Both the position numbers and the translations under genes were made by a program. The notes under the pieces are model-generated. The model ran no database searches. It worked only from the letters and a program-made list of their open reading frames with translations, and was not told the DNA's origin. A stretch of 32,349 bases of DNA from Methanocorpusculum sp. (GTDB lineage Archaea > Halobacteriota > Methanomicrobia > Methanomicrobiales > Methanocorpusculaceae), in contig JAUNXT010000001.1 of assembly GCA_030539655.1 (NCBI GenBank), forward strand, positions 52,910 to 85,258, written 5' to 3'. Positions 3,207 to 32,273 of this stretch are shown piece by piece. Each line of letters opens with the position of its first letter. The stretch's first letter is position 1.

Positions 3207-6158
3207 GTGCCTCACGAATATAAACCCCCGAAATACCGCCATACAGATAAAAGCCGCCGCTTAGGAAAACCGGCAGCGCATGCTCCGTCCCATAGGCAGC
3301 GGGAGAATATTGCAGGAGATAAACCCCCGCGAAAAACCGCACCGAAATCGCTTGGAAACGAGCTCACCAGAAAAGACAGTATTCATGCAAAACTTCAGAA
3401 ACAGCTCTTCTGGTGCCCCAAATGCAACATTCCGCTCCTTGCAAAAACCTGTGCGTGCAGCACTGCCTCTGTAAAAATCGACCTGCAGCAGCCCTATGAT
3501 GTGCGCCCCGTGCTCAAAGCAGATTATAATCTCATTGTAAAGACCATGCGGGAGCGCTTCGGGGATAGGGTATCTCTTCCCCGGATTGTTGTGCTCAACA
3601 AGGCAGGCGGTCTTGACCGGCGTGACCTTATTATCGCAAACGGCATACGGTTTGCATGGTTTTCGTTTGATCCGGTAAACAGAAAGTATGCATTCGACAT
3701 AGAAGCAGAGGCGCTTCCCTATCTTGCAAAAGATGCGGACAAAGGCATCGTCCGTCTGGAAGACGCGGCTGAAGAGGTCCCCGAAGGACGGCTTGGCGGG
3801 AAACGCATCACTATTCGCCCGCAGAACATGGATGACGGAGTGGTAATTGTCAGATACAAATCAAAGTGGGGAACAGGTATTCTGAAAGGCACCTCACTGA
3901 AAATAAAAGAACTCGGCGCCCTCGATGAGACAAAACATCTCCCGGACCCGGACTGGAGTGAGTTTACCGCGAAAAACGCATTCCATATCAAAAACATGGA
4001 GCGGACCGCGGTGCGCGAAATCAGGCAGAATCTGACGCTTCGCCCGGAGATTAACTGTTCGTTTTCCGGAGGAAAGGACAGTACCGCAGTCTGGAACATC
4101 GCGCAGAAGGCGGGTGTTACCAAAGCTTTCTTCATCGACACCGGGCTTGAGTTTCCGGAAACAATCGCATTCGTTAAGGCGCAGAATGTGGAGTTCATTG
4201 AACGTGCCGGAAACTTCTGGCAGGCGGTGGAAAAAGCAGGTCCCCCGGCAAAAGACCACCGCTGGTGCTGTAAACTCTTAAAACTCAATCCGGTAAAGAT
4301 TCATTTAAACGAAACCGGCCCGTGTCTTACGGTGCAGGGAAACCGCTGGTACGAGTCATGGAACCGTGCGGAACTTGAGGCTGTGACGCAGAATCCGAAC
4401 AATCCGCTGCAGTTAAACATCTCGCCTATCCGTTCCTGGCGTGCTCTGGATGTCTTCTGTTACCTCTGGCTGAAGGAGATTCCCTATAATCCGCTGTATG
4501 ACATCGGGTATGAACGGATTGGCTGCTATCTCTGTCCCGCGATGCTTGAGTCCGAGCTTGAAACCATGCAGCGGACGCATCATGACATGGCGGAACGCTG
4601 GGATGCGTTTCTGCGCCGCTGGGCTGAGGAACGCGGTCTTCCGGAGGAGTTTATCTCATGGGGTCTCTGGCGGTGGAAGGAGCTTCCGCCGAAGATGCAG
4701 GAGCTTATAAAAGAGCGTGGTCTTGACCTGAGTGAACAGCCGCTGCGGCGCAGCACCCCGGCTTCGGTTGCATCTCTCATGCCAGAACACCAGAGAGGAG
4801 ATATTGTAGATGACAGCATACCTGCCGCACCAAAGCAGGAGAAGACAGAACAACAGACCATAAAACCGCAGAACACCGGACAATACTCTGAATCCGTGAG
4901 TGTGAACCAGGACATGAAATCCAATATAAACAGTGCAGAAACTATATCATCCGGCGTGGATTCGTCAGAGGGTTTTGATGTTGAACAGATTCGTGCAGAC
5001 TTCCCGATGATAGGAGATATCATTTACCTCGACAGCGGTGCTACCGCCTTCTCCCCGAAACAGGTCATAGATGCCGCGTACGCGTACGATACCACATGCC
5101 GCTCGAACGTGGGACGCGGCGTTCACCGCTTAACGCGGATTGCAACGCAGAAGTACTGGCATGCGCACAAAAAGGTCACGGAGTTCATCAACGGAAGCGC
5201 AGGAACGCTTGTGTTTACGAAAAACTCCACCGAGGCGCTTAATATTGTGGCACACGGCTTCCCCTTTAATCCGGGGGATGTGGTTGTAAACACCATCCTG
5301 GAGCACCACTCAAACACACTTCCCTGGCGTGCACTGAAGAACAAAGGTGTCACTCTGAAGACTGTGGGTGTCTGTGATGATTTATCGCTTGACATGGATG
5401 AACTCACCCGTATCCTTGATGAAGGAAACGTGAAACTGGTAACCGTCTGCCATGTCTCAAATGTTACAGGAACAGTCAATCCGGTTCGTGAGATAGCAGA
5501 CCTCTGTCACAGGCACGGCGCAAAACTCTGTGTGGATGCCGCACAGTCCGTTCCGAAGATGAAGGTCGATGTGGAAGCGCTTGGGTGCGATTATCTGGCA
5601 TTTTCCGGACACAAAATGCTTGCACCCACAGGAACCGGCGCACTCTGGATAAAGGAGGATAATCTCGAGCCGCTGATTTTAGGCGGAGGGATGGTTGAAA
5701 GCGTTTCAGACGACAGTTATGTGCCAATCAAAGGATATGCAAAGTTTGAGTCGGGGACGCCGAACATATCAGGAGGAATCGGATTTGGTGCGGCTGCAGA
5801 CTATCTCTCCGCAATCGGGATGGATGCTGTTGAAGCACGTGAGAGAAAGCTCACTGCGCTGTTAATCAGCGCCCTTGAAAAGATAGAAGGCGTGCATCTG
5901 TTCTGCGCGAAGGATGAGAATGCGAGAATCGGTGCTGTTTCATTTACCCTCGATGGAATCGCCCCGCACGAAGCGGCAACCGTACTCGATGAAGAGTACG
6001 GAATCGCAGTTCGTTCCGGAATGCACTGTGCCGAGCCGCTGATGCGAAGACTCGGGGCCGCATCAGGCACAATCCGTGCTACACCTGCCTTTTACAACAC
6101 CGAGTCCGAGGTAAATATGCTGGCAGCTGCGGTCCGCGAGATGCTGGAACAAATCTAA
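3207..6158 (+). CDS. PP-loop (PAPS reductase-like) and cysteine desulfurase fusion
   Basis: A 983-residue fusion. In order: a basic N-terminus; a zinc-binding-like cluster CPKC (70-73) with CAC (82-84); a PUA-like stretch around 200-240 (VVIVRYKSKWGTGILKGTSL); a PP-loop domain with SGGKDST (287-293), WCCK (353-356) and GCYLCP (439-444); a polar linker (about 510-590); and a SufS-type desulfurase with PLP lysine 803 in SGHKM and catalytic cysteine 941 in RSGMHC. The GTG start is the only usual start codon before the cysteine cluster, since a stop lies three codons upstream. The desulfurase should release sulfur from cysteine as a persulfide, and the PP-loop could use it for ATP-dependent thiolation. 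True PAPS reduction is an alternative. Domain identities are strong; the joint function is inference. Confidence 0.9.
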   Translation: MPHEYKPPKYRHTDKSRRLGKPAAHAPSHRQRENIAGDKPPRKTAPKSLGNELTRKDSIHAKLQKQLFWCPKCNIPLLAKTCACSTASVKIDLQQPYDVRPVLKADYNLIVKTMRERFGDRVSLPRIVVLNKAGGLDRRDLIIANGIRFAWFSFDPVNRKYAFDIEAEALPYLAKDADKGIVRLEDAAEEVPEGRLGGKRITIRPQNMDDGVVIVRYKSKWGTGILKGTSLKIKELGALDETKHLPDPDWSEFTAKNAFHIKNMERTAVREIRQNLTLRPEINCSFSGGKDSTAVWNIAQKAGVTKAFFIDTGLEFPETIAFVKAQNVEFIERAGNFWQAVEKAGPPAKDHRWCCKLLKLNPVKIHLNETGPCLTVQGNRWYESWNRAELEAVTQNPNNPLQLNISPIRSWRALDVFCYLWLKEIPYNPLYDIGYERIGCYLCPAMLESELETMQRTHHDMAERWDAFLRRWAEERGLPEEFISWGLWRWKELPPKMQELIKERGLDLSEQPLRRSTPASVASLMPEHQRGDIVDDSIPAAPKQEKTEQQTIKPQNTGQYSESVSVNQDMKSNINSAETISSGVDSSEGFDVEQIRADFPMIGDIIYLDSGATAFSPKQVIDAAYAYDTTCRSNVGRGVHRLTRIATQKYWHAHKKVTEFINGSAGTLVFTKNSTEALNIVAHGFPFNPGDVVVNTILEHHSNTLPWRALKNKGVTLKTVGVCDDLSLDMDELTRILDEGNVKLVTVCHVSNVTGTVNPVREIADLCHRHGAKLCVDAAQSVPKMKVDVEALGCDYLAFSGHKMLAPTGTGALWIKEDNLEPLILGGGMVESVSDDSYVPIKGYAKFESGTPNISGGIGFGAAADYLSAIGMDAVEARERKLTALLISALEKIEGVHLFCAKDENARIGAVSFTLDGIAPHEAATVLDEEYGIAVRSGMHCAEPLMRRLGAASGTIRATPAFYNTESEVNMLAAAVREMLEQI

Positions 6159-29013: not shown

Positions 29014-29637
29014 TTACTCCCCGTCCTCTTCCTTTTTCCTTTTCATCTCCAGAAGCTTACGGTAGAGCGCAATCTCTTCAGGAGAAATCTCCTTTACCAC
29101 CGGGAACTCCCCGTTTTTGTCCTCCTTCCGTACCATAATCTGGAATCGTCCGGTTCTCGTATAGGGAGAGGGGATGGAGATGATATACTGGTATCCGCTG
29201 CCCTTCATCGGATTCTTCCTTGCATACTCATCCGCTATCATATTTACTGCCTCCATATCAGGATGCTCCCAGGATATCACCTCCCCGCAGCCGCAGCAGA
29301 ACTTTGAATCACCTGTGTTCAGTCTCCCGCATTTTCTGCAGCGGAACAGGCCGAGGATCTCTCTTACGGCGAGCTTTACAAACTGCTCCCTCGAGGGTTT
29401 CTCGAGTTCCCCGGTTTTTCCGGGAAGCTCAAACTCCTGCTCGTACCAGATATTAACCTCCTCGTCCGATACAAGATCCTCTGCAAACCCGGAGGTGACC
29501 GCTTTTTCGAGCGTCTGCTTAATCCACTCGTTTGTGGTGATGTTTCTTTTGCGCGCTTCCGTGCTGCACCGCTCCTTAAGCTCCCCAGGTATTCTGAGGG
29601 TGAGTGCTGCGTCATATCCTTTTGGTTTCGCTGTCAT
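29014..29637 (-). CDS. Ribbon-helix-helix and zinc-ribbon protein
   Basis: A 207-residue putative regulator. Residues about 8-50 (ALTLRIPGELKERC to NEWIKQTLEKAV) resemble a ribbon-helix-helix DNA-binding domain. A zinc ribbon with cysteines 100, 103, 114 and 117 (CRKCG and FCCGCG) follows, then a beta-rich C-terminal part ending in a Lys/Glu tail. It is divergent from the ATPase gene at 29934 across about 300 AT-rich nt with inverted and direct repeats, a typical layout for a self-regulating repressor. Its promoter appears leaderless. Target and ligand unknown. Confidence 0.78.
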   Translation of the reverse strand: MTAKPKGYDAALTLRIPGELKERCSTEARKRNITTNEWIKQTLEKAVTSGFAEDLVSDEEVNIWYEQEFELPGKTGELEKPSREQFVKLAVREILGLFRCRKCGRLNTGDSKFCCGCGEVISWEHPDMEAVNMIADEYARKNPMKGSGYQYIISIPSPYTRTGRFQIMVRKEDKNGEFPVVKEISPEEIALYRKLLEMKRKKEEDGE

Positions 29638-29933: not shown

Positions 29934-31349
29934 ATGACCGAAGCAGAATGTACCCTGCCCGAAACACCGCCTTCAGCACCCCCTGCACCATCGGCTCCGC
30001 AGGAGACCTCTTCCGGAGGGCTGAACCTCGCAGAATTTGGCGGGACCTCCTGCTCGGCGCAGGAAGGACGTGCTGTCCCGCAGCTCGACATCTCTGCTGC
30101 AGAACAGCAGAGTGAGGAAGAGAAACATCAGGAAGATGAAGCCCGCAGGATTTATGAAAGCGGACAGGCCTTTGAATACATGACAAACACCTGTCTTAAA
30201 CTCCATGTGGACGATGAAAACATCATCCGGGCACTTATTTTATCCTACGCGGGAACCTTCATTGCCAACAACGAACTTGGGATTAACATCAGAATCTCCG
30301 GCGAGGCGGGGATTGGAAAGACCCATGTGGCAAACACCGTTGCAAAGATTATTCCCCCTGACTATATACTTGCCGCGAGATTCTCGGACAAAGCGCTGCT
30401 CTACATGTGCGAGGATCTGAAGTCCGGCTCTGTCATTTACTATGACGACCAGGCGTTAAGTGAACAGGCGGCTGAAATCATGAAGGCACAGACAAGCGAC
30501 ATCAACAAACCCTTCATCTATCATACGGTGGCAAACAGCAAACATGAACAGCTTACCTTCCCTCCGCTCTGTGTGCGGTGGTTTGTTCTGTGCAACTCAA
30601 CAGGAGATGAGCAGACAGCAGACCGTGAGCTTTCTTTTTTCGTGGACAACTCATTTGCGCATCAGCAGCGGGTGAAAAAACTCAAGGCCTTCCTGAGCAT
30701 GAACCCCTCGGTTCAGCAGGACACGACGGAAGTTGATACCGCACGGAGAATCTGGAAGTATATCCGGCGGCAGACGATTGTTCAGATTCCGTTCGCGGAC
30801 CGGATTGAATCAGACGGAAGCGAGCCGTTAAGAAACCTGGCTCTTTTTGAGTCACTTATCCGTGCCTCGGCTGTTCTCCACGCACCGGTCCGTGAGATGA
30901 CGGCAGATGGGTTTGTTGTCGCATCGGAAGAGGATTTTGAGATTGCTGCAAGAATCATGAATCCGATTTTAAAAGGTGTTCAGGGCAGTCAGAAACGTAA
31001 ACTCACCAAGAATCAGGAGAGGATTCTGACAGAGTTCCTTGAACTAAAGGAGAGCAGTTACTATCTGTTTAAGGATATCCGTGATGCCCTGAATCTGAGC
31101 GAAGCACAGCTTTCACAGGCTGTCAACGGACGATACGACGCAACACACCACTCTGACGGTCTGCTGAAGATTCCGGGAATTGCTGCACGTCAGGATAAGG
31201 ACGGGATTAAGTATCTTGAGTGGGATGCAGATAATTACTGGAGATGGAACGGCTCGAATGCATACTTTATCCTGAGACCGGTGTCTGAGATGTCTGAAGA
31301 GCCGGTGTCTGAGAAAAAAGGTAAAGTGATTATGGGTTTACACAGATAG
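29934..31349 (+). CDS. P-loop ATPase, possible replication initiator or helicase
   Basis: A 471-residue ATPase. A Pro/Ala/Glu-rich, probably disordered N-terminus (1-75) precedes a P-loop domain with Walker A GEAGIGKT (123-130), Walker B-like SVIYYDD (166-172) and a sensor-like RWFVLCN (215-221). A helical region follows, and the C-terminal part (about 360-445) looks like a winged-helix DNA-binding domain. The ATPase part recalls helicase-like and plasmid replication proteins, but I do not recognise a specific family. The gene ends at a cluster of GGTAAA(G) repeats, one of which overlaps its last codons. GGAG lies 12 nt before the ATG. A role in replication of an integrated element is inference. 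Confidence 0.75.
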   Translation: MTEAECTLPETPPSAPPAPSAPQETSSGGLNLAEFGGTSCSAQEGRAVPQLDISAAEQQSEEEKHQEDEARRIYESGQAFEYMTNTCLKLHVDDENIIRALILSYAGTFIANNELGINIRISGEAGIGKTHVANTVAKIIPPDYILAARFSDKALLYMCEDLKSGSVIYYDDQALSEQAAEIMKAQTSDINKPFIYHTVANSKHEQLTFPPLCVRWFVLCNSTGDEQTADRELSFFVDNSFAHQQRVKKLKAFLSMNPSVQQDTTEVDTARRIWKYIRRQTIVQIPFADRIESDGSEPLRNLALFESLIRASAVLHAPVREMTADGFVVASEEDFEIAARIMNPILKGVQGSQKRKLTKNQERILTEFLELKESSYYLFKDIRDALNLSEAQLSQAVNGRYDATHHSDGLLKIPGIAARQDKDGIKYLEWDADNYWRWNGSNAYFILRPVSEMSEEPVSEKKGKVIMGLHR

Positions 31350-31622
31350 GGTAAAGTCTAAACTCCTATCTTTTTCCTTTATTTTAAAAAATATATTTTT
31401 TTTAAGCTTTAAATTTTTGACTTTACCTTTTTACCTTTTTTTCGGGTGCGAGAGGGGGGAGGTGAGCTGTTCTTCATTTTCTCTTACTGCCTCTCACATT
31501 TACCATTAAGGTAAAATGATATTATAAATATAATAATTATTATTATAATACCCTTAGAACAGGTAAACGGAGCATGTTTGGACTTTACCATCCACTGGTA
31601 AAGTGAGGGTAAAGCGGTAAAG
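31320..31622. repeat. Cluster of eleven GGTAAA(G) repeats in AT-rich DNA
   Basis: Plus-strand GGTAAA(G) copies start at 31320, 31350, 31510, 31562, 31597, 31608 and 31616; minus-strand copies (TTTACC) start at 31421, 31430, 31499 and 31583. Seven or so extend to the full heptamer. Two copies form an inverted repeat with 8-bp arms and a 5-nt loop (31583-31603), two others have 6-bp arms and a 5-nt loop (31499-31515). Between them lie AT-rich runs (31378-31418 and 31520-31549). The pattern suggests iterons of a replication origin or an operator array. There is no protein-coding signal in 31350-31658. Confidence 0.8.
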
Positions 31623-31658: not shown

Positions 31659-32273
31659 TCACTTATCCAGACTCCCCTCATCCAGGAGAAACTCAAAGAG
31701 TCCCATCGTCACAATACCATCCTCATCCCGCTTCAGCATCATGTCATCCTTCACCACAATAATTTTCTTAAACGAATCATCAATCGACAAAAGCGGCCGC
31801 TTCTCCTGCAGAACCTTGTCCGCATCGGATAGTGCAAACGCCGACTGAACATAATATCGTCTGCTTCCCTGATTCACCACAAAATCAACCTCATACCGGA
31901 CTCTGCCGCGTTTCCCTGAGGCGTTCTGCTCAAACCGTTCAACAACCCCGACATCCACATCAAATCCGCGGGCACGGAGCTCATTGTAGATGATGTTTTC
32001 CATCAGATAATTCTCCTCCTGCTGACGGAAGTTCAGCCGGGCGTTTCGAAGGCCCGCATCCTCAAAGTAATATTTCAATGGGGTGCCGATGTACTGTCTC
32101 CCGCGGATATCAAACCGCTTTACACCGGTAATCAGGAACGCATCCTGCAGTGCTGCCAGATAGGAGGCCGCTGTCACCGCCGAGATTGAGCTCTTCTCAA
32201 CACTCCGGAACGTATTTACGATACGCTGCGGGTTTGTGAGTGAACCTATGGAGGAGGAGAGGATGTCTGCTGT
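31659..32273 (-). pseudogene. 5'-truncated DUF4143 ATPase fragment
   Basis: The open frame, bounded by TAG at 32274-32276, encodes the C-terminal domain of a DUF4143-type archaeal/bacterial ATPase: SSSIGSLTNPQRI, SAVTAASYLAALQDAFLI, FDIRGRQYIGTPLKYYF and VDFVVNQGSRRYYVQSAFAL. The matching N-terminal P-loop ATPase is absent, as the window end follows and upstream frames contain stops. Upstream in a second frame, NRYKSRKSTI resembles the linker normally preceding this domain, hinting at a frameshift near 32270. A GTG at 32177 could start a 172-residue domain, but the conserved SLTNPQRI would be lost. Most likely a degraded gene; a longer, intact version would have to continue beyond the window. 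Confidence 0.7.

Follow-up and report, generated by a model that had tools for sequence, protein, structure and literature searches.

Results

Gene content and repeats at the locus

We use the term window for the whole stretch of DNA analysed, 32,349 nucleotides (G000:C42:52910-85258) at the end of an 85-kb contig in a Methanocorpusculum assembly of 1.2 Mb that is 77% complete. The host is a gut-type methanogen. Near the end of the window, a gene for a short P-loop ATPase is followed directly by an array of GGTAAA repeats and is preceded by a divergent gene for a ribbon-helix-helix (RHH) protein; the contig terminates 728 bp past the array. The features, in window coordinates, are the following:

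29014-29637, minus strand: RHH and zinc-ribbon protein, 207 aa, divergent from the ATPase gene (Pfam HicB, 1.8e-05; Arc-like repressor PHROG, 1.2e-04)
29934-31349, plus strand: P-loop ATPase, 471 aa, intact open reading frame (ORF), candidate replication initiator/helicase
30297-30326, plus strand: Walker A region SGEAGIGKTH, ATPase residues 122-131 (alignment)
30987-31268, plus strand: C-terminal region, ATPase residues 352-445 (alignment; weak PHROG_296 match at 352-402)
31320-31325, plus strand: GGTAAA copy 1, within the 3' end of the ATPase ORF
31350-31355, plus strand: copy 2, immediately 3' of the ATPase stop codon
31422-31427, minus strand: copy 3
31430-31435, minus strand: copy 4
31499-31504, minus strand: copy 5
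31501-31550: softest 50 bp, 90% AT, candidate DNA-unwinding element (nearest-neighbour stability scan)
31510-31515, plus strand: copy 6, bordering the AT-rich element
31530-31582, plus strand: non-repeat core TTATTATTATAATACCCTTAGAACAGGTAAACGGAGCATGTTTGG, common to the arrays on contigs C8 and C48 (alignments)
31562-31567, plus strand: copy 7
31583-31603 (C42:84492-84512): palindrome CTTTACC-N7-GGTAAAG, made of copies 8 (31584, minus strand) and 9 (31597, plus strand)
31608-31613, plus strand: copy 10
31616-31621, plus strand: copy 11

The initial annotation, made from the letters of the window, had reported eleven copies of GGTAAA on both strands between 31320 and 31622, and we recover every one of them where it was placed, seven extending to GGTAAAG. 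It had also described an array that sets in within the last codons of the ATPase gene, holds an AT-rich stretch and contains short inverted pairs; this description agrees with the unwinding element and palindrome listed above, and the array extends roughly 270 bp beyond the stop codon. The eleven copies occupy 302 bp, while the remaining 32 kb of the window holds 35 copies of GGTAAA (about 1.1 per kb), so that a stretch of 302 bp would be expected to have about 0.3. When the 400-bp segment was shuffled 300 times with its dinucleotides preserved, no 6-mer exceeded six copies and the mean maximum was 3.3.

Elsewhere in the window we note a 172-aa DUF4143 protein fragment 3' of the array (31659-32177, minus strand), with an upstream frame that appears interrupted and the contig end at 32349, and a 983-aa ORF (3207-6158, plus strand) in which PAPS-reductase-like and cysteine-desulfurase-like parts can be made out by eye in a single frame. 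Where the window was examined (the ORF list, with Pfam on five neighbours), no integrase, packaging, interference or virus structural gene was recognised. PADLOC lists the candidate PDC-S01 beside the window array.

The ATPase and its relatives

In alignments of the ATPase, the Walker A motif GxxGxGK[TS]H, a Walker B DD, an Arg and a GD[DE]Q-x(3)-R motif are invariant. Pfam returns weak AAA matches only, and profiles from the PDB likewise recognise nothing beyond weak AAA; PHROGs matches the protein to a DnaC-like helicase loader (2.7e-05), and there is a weak match to a phage DNA-transposition family. An AlphaFold model made without an alignment was unusable (mean pLDDT 34). Residues 352-445 are presumed, from the alignment and profile match, to form a helix-turn-helix or winged-helix part that binds the origin.

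Homologs of the ATPase occur in 51 of 100 relatives, mostly within ORFs of about 800-1100 aa. By eye, these longer homologs within the order Methanomicrobiales begin with an N-terminus resembling archaeo-eukaryotic primases, which Pfam did not name, followed by a Cys/His motif; the alignment shows that the 471-aa protein of the window has no such primase-like N-terminus. No Pfam match to DUF927, D5/Primase_Cterm or VirE was found in 12 homologs at E<=0.01. Searches of IMG/VR and phage records gave no relatives of the window protein or of its form in a provirus (genome G010, below), phage matches to one homolog of about 1000 aa covered its N-terminal third only, and the one weak plasmid match to the ATPase is annotated as a toprim-domain protein.

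Two solitary arrays in the same genome

A BLAST search with the window array region returns, besides itself, C8:5344-5629 (79% identity) and C48:30839-31050 (75%), two solitary arrays that together with the window array are the only GGTAAAG arrays in the assembly. GGTAAA is thus not equally dense elsewhere, with three arrays in 1.2 Mb. The palindrome CTTTACC-N(4-10)-GGTAAAG is found at five places in the assembly, all with N=7 and all within the three arrays, while close direct pairs outside them proved in a genome scan to be scattered singles. A tblastn search for the ATPase shows no trace of it on C8; its matches on C48 and on G023:C135, where G023 is Candidatus Methanocorpusculum equi, are at chance level.

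The C8 array lies directly 3' of the gene for the PolD small subunit (DP1) and about 3.3 kb downstream of an orc1/cdc6 gene, about 100 bases of which read as N (masked; L034:1178-1277); a second orc1/cdc6 homolog is on C47. This setting could be read as that of a secondary chromosomal origin used by the host initiator Orc1/Cdc6, with the ATPase beside the window array as an incidental neighbour. We regard this as hardly likely, since classical origin boxes, the ORB-like TTCGACTGGAGGG and TCCAGTGGAAA, lie upstream of the C8 orc1/cdc6, no DP1-downstream array occurs in the available sequence of 18 other Methanocorpusculum, and the array word follows the ATPase rather than Orc1 (below). GC skew at C8, C42 and C48 was uninformative, with no clean switch at C48. 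The ORB-like boxes imply that the canonical oriC is an element other than the array.

Two further candidates were set aside. The window array as the chromosomal oriC, with Orc1/Cdc6 and ORB boxes, was rejected, the word here being GGTAAAG and the ORB-like boxes lying elsewhere, on C8; a genus-wide conserved chromosomal site was rejected on the same survey of 18 species and on the scarcity of matches in the genus (below). At C48, aroC/chorismate-mutase stands next to the conserved OB-gene/Nif3 pair; we did not see this neighbour in the 1.5 kb inspected in relatives.

Among 24 other genomes of the genus, clear GGTAAAG-type matches occur in Ca. M. equi only. A stretch of the window core preceding GGAGCATG is also present there (alignment). 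Plasmid and phage records yielded no similar array DNA, and a palindrome scan across genomes gave, besides Ca. M. equi, matches in unrelated bacteria that were not dense arrays. Separately, a viral contig (L099:5800-5920, IMGVR_UViG_3300032030_000506) carries six GGTAAA/TTTACC in about 110 bp in a different context; they lie just before an ORF whose translation looks, by eye, like the N-terminus of a tyrosine recombinase, and are possibly arm-type sites.

Related short ATPases with repeated words of their own

Would the same arrangement be found beside homologous ATPases, as an iteron reading predicts? Searching with a model of the array core sequence, we obtain a weak match (E=0.002) at C28:15265-15385, just 3' of a paralog (L036:7644-9071) that is about 50% identical to the window ATPase (52% over the matched part). 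The array there is built on another word, GGAAAGTC; GGAAAG/CTTTCC occurs in it twelve times, on both strands. Counting k-mers 3' of every homolog retrieved adds ACGTAAA in G009 and TGTTGAA in G010, both other Methanocorpusculum genomes. The words of C28, G009 and G010 each stand above all 300 shuffles, while upstream control segments do not. The genus's other short ATPases, too, have an array directly 3' of them (0-200 bp downstream), each with a private word: in all, four ATPase types are each paired with a different exact word, and there is a fifth type (G003 and G021) in which no exact k-mer is enriched and the layout is seen with the degenerate word [TC]G[AT]CAA, chosen by eye and post hoc. 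Farther out, homologs of about 800 aa in another genus have weaker repeats of GTGCAAA type (2 of 300 shuffles for L012 and L016; not significant for L019), and no exact k-mer is enriched downstream of homologs of about 1000 aa.

The divergent pair of RHH/zinc-ribbon and ATPase genes is present in the window, on C28 and in G009, and its profile matches make the RHH gene a candidate for copy control or repression in the module; no RHH neighbour is listed beside the ATPases of G010 and G003/G021. The initial annotation's term orphan thus fits the window ATPase in part only, given this divergent partner and a paralog with an array of its own elsewhere. The G010 ATPase adjoins an AAA_24 ATPase and is followed, 2.7 kb further on, by genes for a terminase large subunit and a Mu-F-like protein, which places it in a provirus. 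The C28 module has the PADLOC candidate PDC-S02 beside it. Patatin-like genes lie near the G009 module (L156:2683-3546) and near the GGTAAAG array of Ca. M. equi (L140:621-1478); they are only 28% identical, and their shared presence is probably coincidence.

An RHH gene, a P-loop ATPase and a repeat array together make up the general anatomy of some partition systems, in which the RHH protein would bind the array and the ATPase would serve as motor, and several sites per chromosome would fit such a centromere function as well. We consider a partition module very improbable here, however: the ATPase loop is GxxGxGK[TS]H and not the deviant ParA type, its relatives are proteins of about 800-1100 aa with an apparent primase N-terminus, and in G010 the word follows the ATPase even where the RHH gene is missing.

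A layout shared across different words

The arrays share more than their place. Measured from similar starts, and with the right-hand part compared where the sequence is long enough, they run from left repeats through inverted middle copies at about 106-139 to an AT-rich softest 50 bp, a right inverted pair and direct repeats, whichever word they are written in. The softest 50 bp starts near 191-209 (place about 191-258) and is 84-96% AT in the arrays compared, except the truncated array of Ca. M. equi, whose own softest 50 bp is at 231-280; contig ends interrupt the arrays of G009 and Ca. M. equi. Tested against random placement, position and orientation are shared in most pairs, for example between C42 and C28 (p=0.003), C28 and G010 (p=0.002), G010 and G021 (p=0.006), C42 and either G009 or G010 (p=0.012-0.014), and C8 and C28 (0 of 1000), while the sharing is not significant for C42 and G021 (p=0.157) or G010 and G009 (p=0.12). 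Reverse-complement controls score similarly in several pairs, because the layout is nearly symmetric.

Two other uses of such an array can be weighed against this layout. RHH repressors bind repeated short words and initiators often autoregulate, so that the array could be a regulatory operator and nothing more, through which the ATPase or the RHH protein controls neighbouring genes. This is unlikely, because the array is 3' of the ATPase and not in the RHH-ATPase intergenic region, where no word is enriched; moreover, no RHH gene is listed next to the ATPase in the provirus or in G003/G021, the solitary arrays have different neighbours, and the AT-rich melting element is retained in all layouts. 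Alternatively, repeats in opposite orientations at both ends and copies at several loci recall the repeated transposase sites of Tn7-like transposon ends, and the weak match of the ATPase to a phage DNA-transposition family would suit a target-selection ATPase. Against this, we see no transposase gene beside the ATPase, a variable number of outer repeats without a sharp edge, no target duplication evident by eye, one complete array on one side of the gene instead of two element ends, and relatives that carry a primase-like domain or sit inside a provirus; transposon ends are the least probable reading we considered.

Conservation and decay of the arrays

The module shared by G003 and G021 occupies one and the same chromosomal site in both, and its dN/dS of 0.157 at a dS of 0.107 is in keeping with selection. 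In the two solitary arrays, C48 and C8, the motif columns are 89-98% identical and the other columns 51-53%, and no rotation of the motif mask does as well, a comparison to be read with the caveat that an aligner can favour repeated words. Words that are kept while spacers drift suggest that the solitary arrays still bind protein.

Ca. M. equi (assembly about 70% complete) has both a GGTAAAG and a GGAAAG array, with no full ATPase detected. The GGAAAG array is 90% identical to that of C28, and only the last 34 ATPase codons remain beside it (88% identical); its other part is on a separate contig, where it adjoins a BREX BrxD gene (L169:187-1470, G023:C62; NCBIfam equivalog, 377 bits). G009 likewise has a second array, a partial ACGTAAA array (L170:1480-1620, G009:C205) that is solitary, 77% identical to the module array and has no ATPase nearby. 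From the array that keeps a mere remnant of its ATPase and from this partial solitary one, it follows that arrays outlive the gene.

Discussion

After the comparisons of density and of homologs, both of which came out in its favour and the second of which is decisive, an iteron origin beside its initiator, as first proposed in the initial annotation, is the best-supported reading, and we carry it forward with three additions: the origin would be of mobile-element type, the canonical oriC lies elsewhere, upstream of orc1/cdc6, and the genome has two more arrays, both solitary. The array is probably the iteron-type replication origin of a mobile element, with the upstream ATPase as its cognate initiator helicase. 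We favour a mobile-element origin over the chromosome's own oriC because members of the ATPase family occur in proviruses as well, and within larger proteins that appear to have a primase N-terminus. In this mechanism, the ATPase would use its C-terminal part to contact GGTAAAG heptads to either side of the AT-rich element, would assemble there as a ring or double ring, and would then open the AT-rich DNA for priming and for the host's replication proteins, while the divergent RHH protein would restrain expression. The solitary C8 and C48 arrays, written in the same word, could be bound in trans by the window ATPase. Whether the module replicates on its own today is doubtful, since no integrase or other virus gene is recognised around the window ATPase: the RHH gene, ATPase and origin sit in the chromosome without recognisable virus genes, while a relative lies in the provirus of G010.

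The solitary arrays may be decoys, secondary origins or relics. One version, to which we give a rather low chance, holds that they are under selection as copies of virus or plasmid origins, either as decoys that titrate the initiator of related viruses on their entry or as auxiliary origins at which a domesticated initiator acts in trans. A decoy role is conceivable because ectopic lambda origins arrest lambda (PMC4488673), and the defence-type candidate neighbours (PDC-S01, PDC-S02 and BrxD) would fit it.

If the iteron-origin reading is right, Methanomicrobiales methanogens would possess a rep-ori module recognisable from its sequence alone, and with it a possible base for replicating vectors in organisms for which genetic manipulation is difficult. 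The word swaps beside related ATPases would open an initiator recognition code to exchange of arrays and domains. The solitary arrays also pose a question: do hosts retain foreign origins to act as decoys? For lambda, such an effect is known from engineered cells only (PMC4488673). In the literature searched, which was limited in extent, we found no description of a rep-ori module of this kind.

Comparison with known systems

The iterons of staphylococcal SaPI elements flank an AT-rich region, and their specificity differs between islands. Both SaPI Rep and SCCmec Cch2 use a C-terminal domain to bind short repeats that lie immediately 3' of the gene encoding the protein (PMC7581432). By analogy, the window would resemble SaPI pri-rep-ori and SCCmec Cch2 in having an initiator ATPase gene with a multi-iteron origin directly 3' of it. 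It differs from SaPI in its archaeal host, in an ATPase that is not DUF927, D5 or VirE by Pfam, in having no separate primase gene adjoining and no island genes around it, and in the solitary origin copies elsewhere in the chromosome.

Among archaeal plasmids, the minimal replicon of pRN1 from Sulfolobus consists of the copy-control gene orf56, the replication protein gene orf904 and an origin that falls in the 166 bp 3' of these genes (PMC4234260). The window has counterparts of all three: a gene of repressor type, one for a putative replication protein and, directly after the latter, the proposed origin. The pRN1 origin, however, is a 100-nt stem-loop and not an iteron array, and orf904 encodes a combined primase and SF3 helicase and forms an operon with orf56, whereas the module in the window lacks a primase and has its RHH gene in divergent orientation. 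The longer homologs of the ATPase, with what by eye are a primase, a Zn motif, a P-loop ATPase and a C-terminal region, resemble the primase-helicases of the PrimPol-PV1 supergroup in the domain order described for replication proteins of mobile elements (PMC5862659), from which the short form in the window differs in lacking the primase-like part; the passages of that survey consulted here do not name the ATPase family of the window or describe an origin array.

Finally, the origin of phage lambda combines four 19-bp iterons with an AT-rich stretch, and ectopic copies of it arrest replication of the phage (PMC4488673). The window array is like it in placing iterons beside an AT-rich melting region. 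In lambda, however, the origin lies within the initiator gene O and the decoy effect comes from plasmids, whereas the solitary arrays described here are natural and chromosomal.
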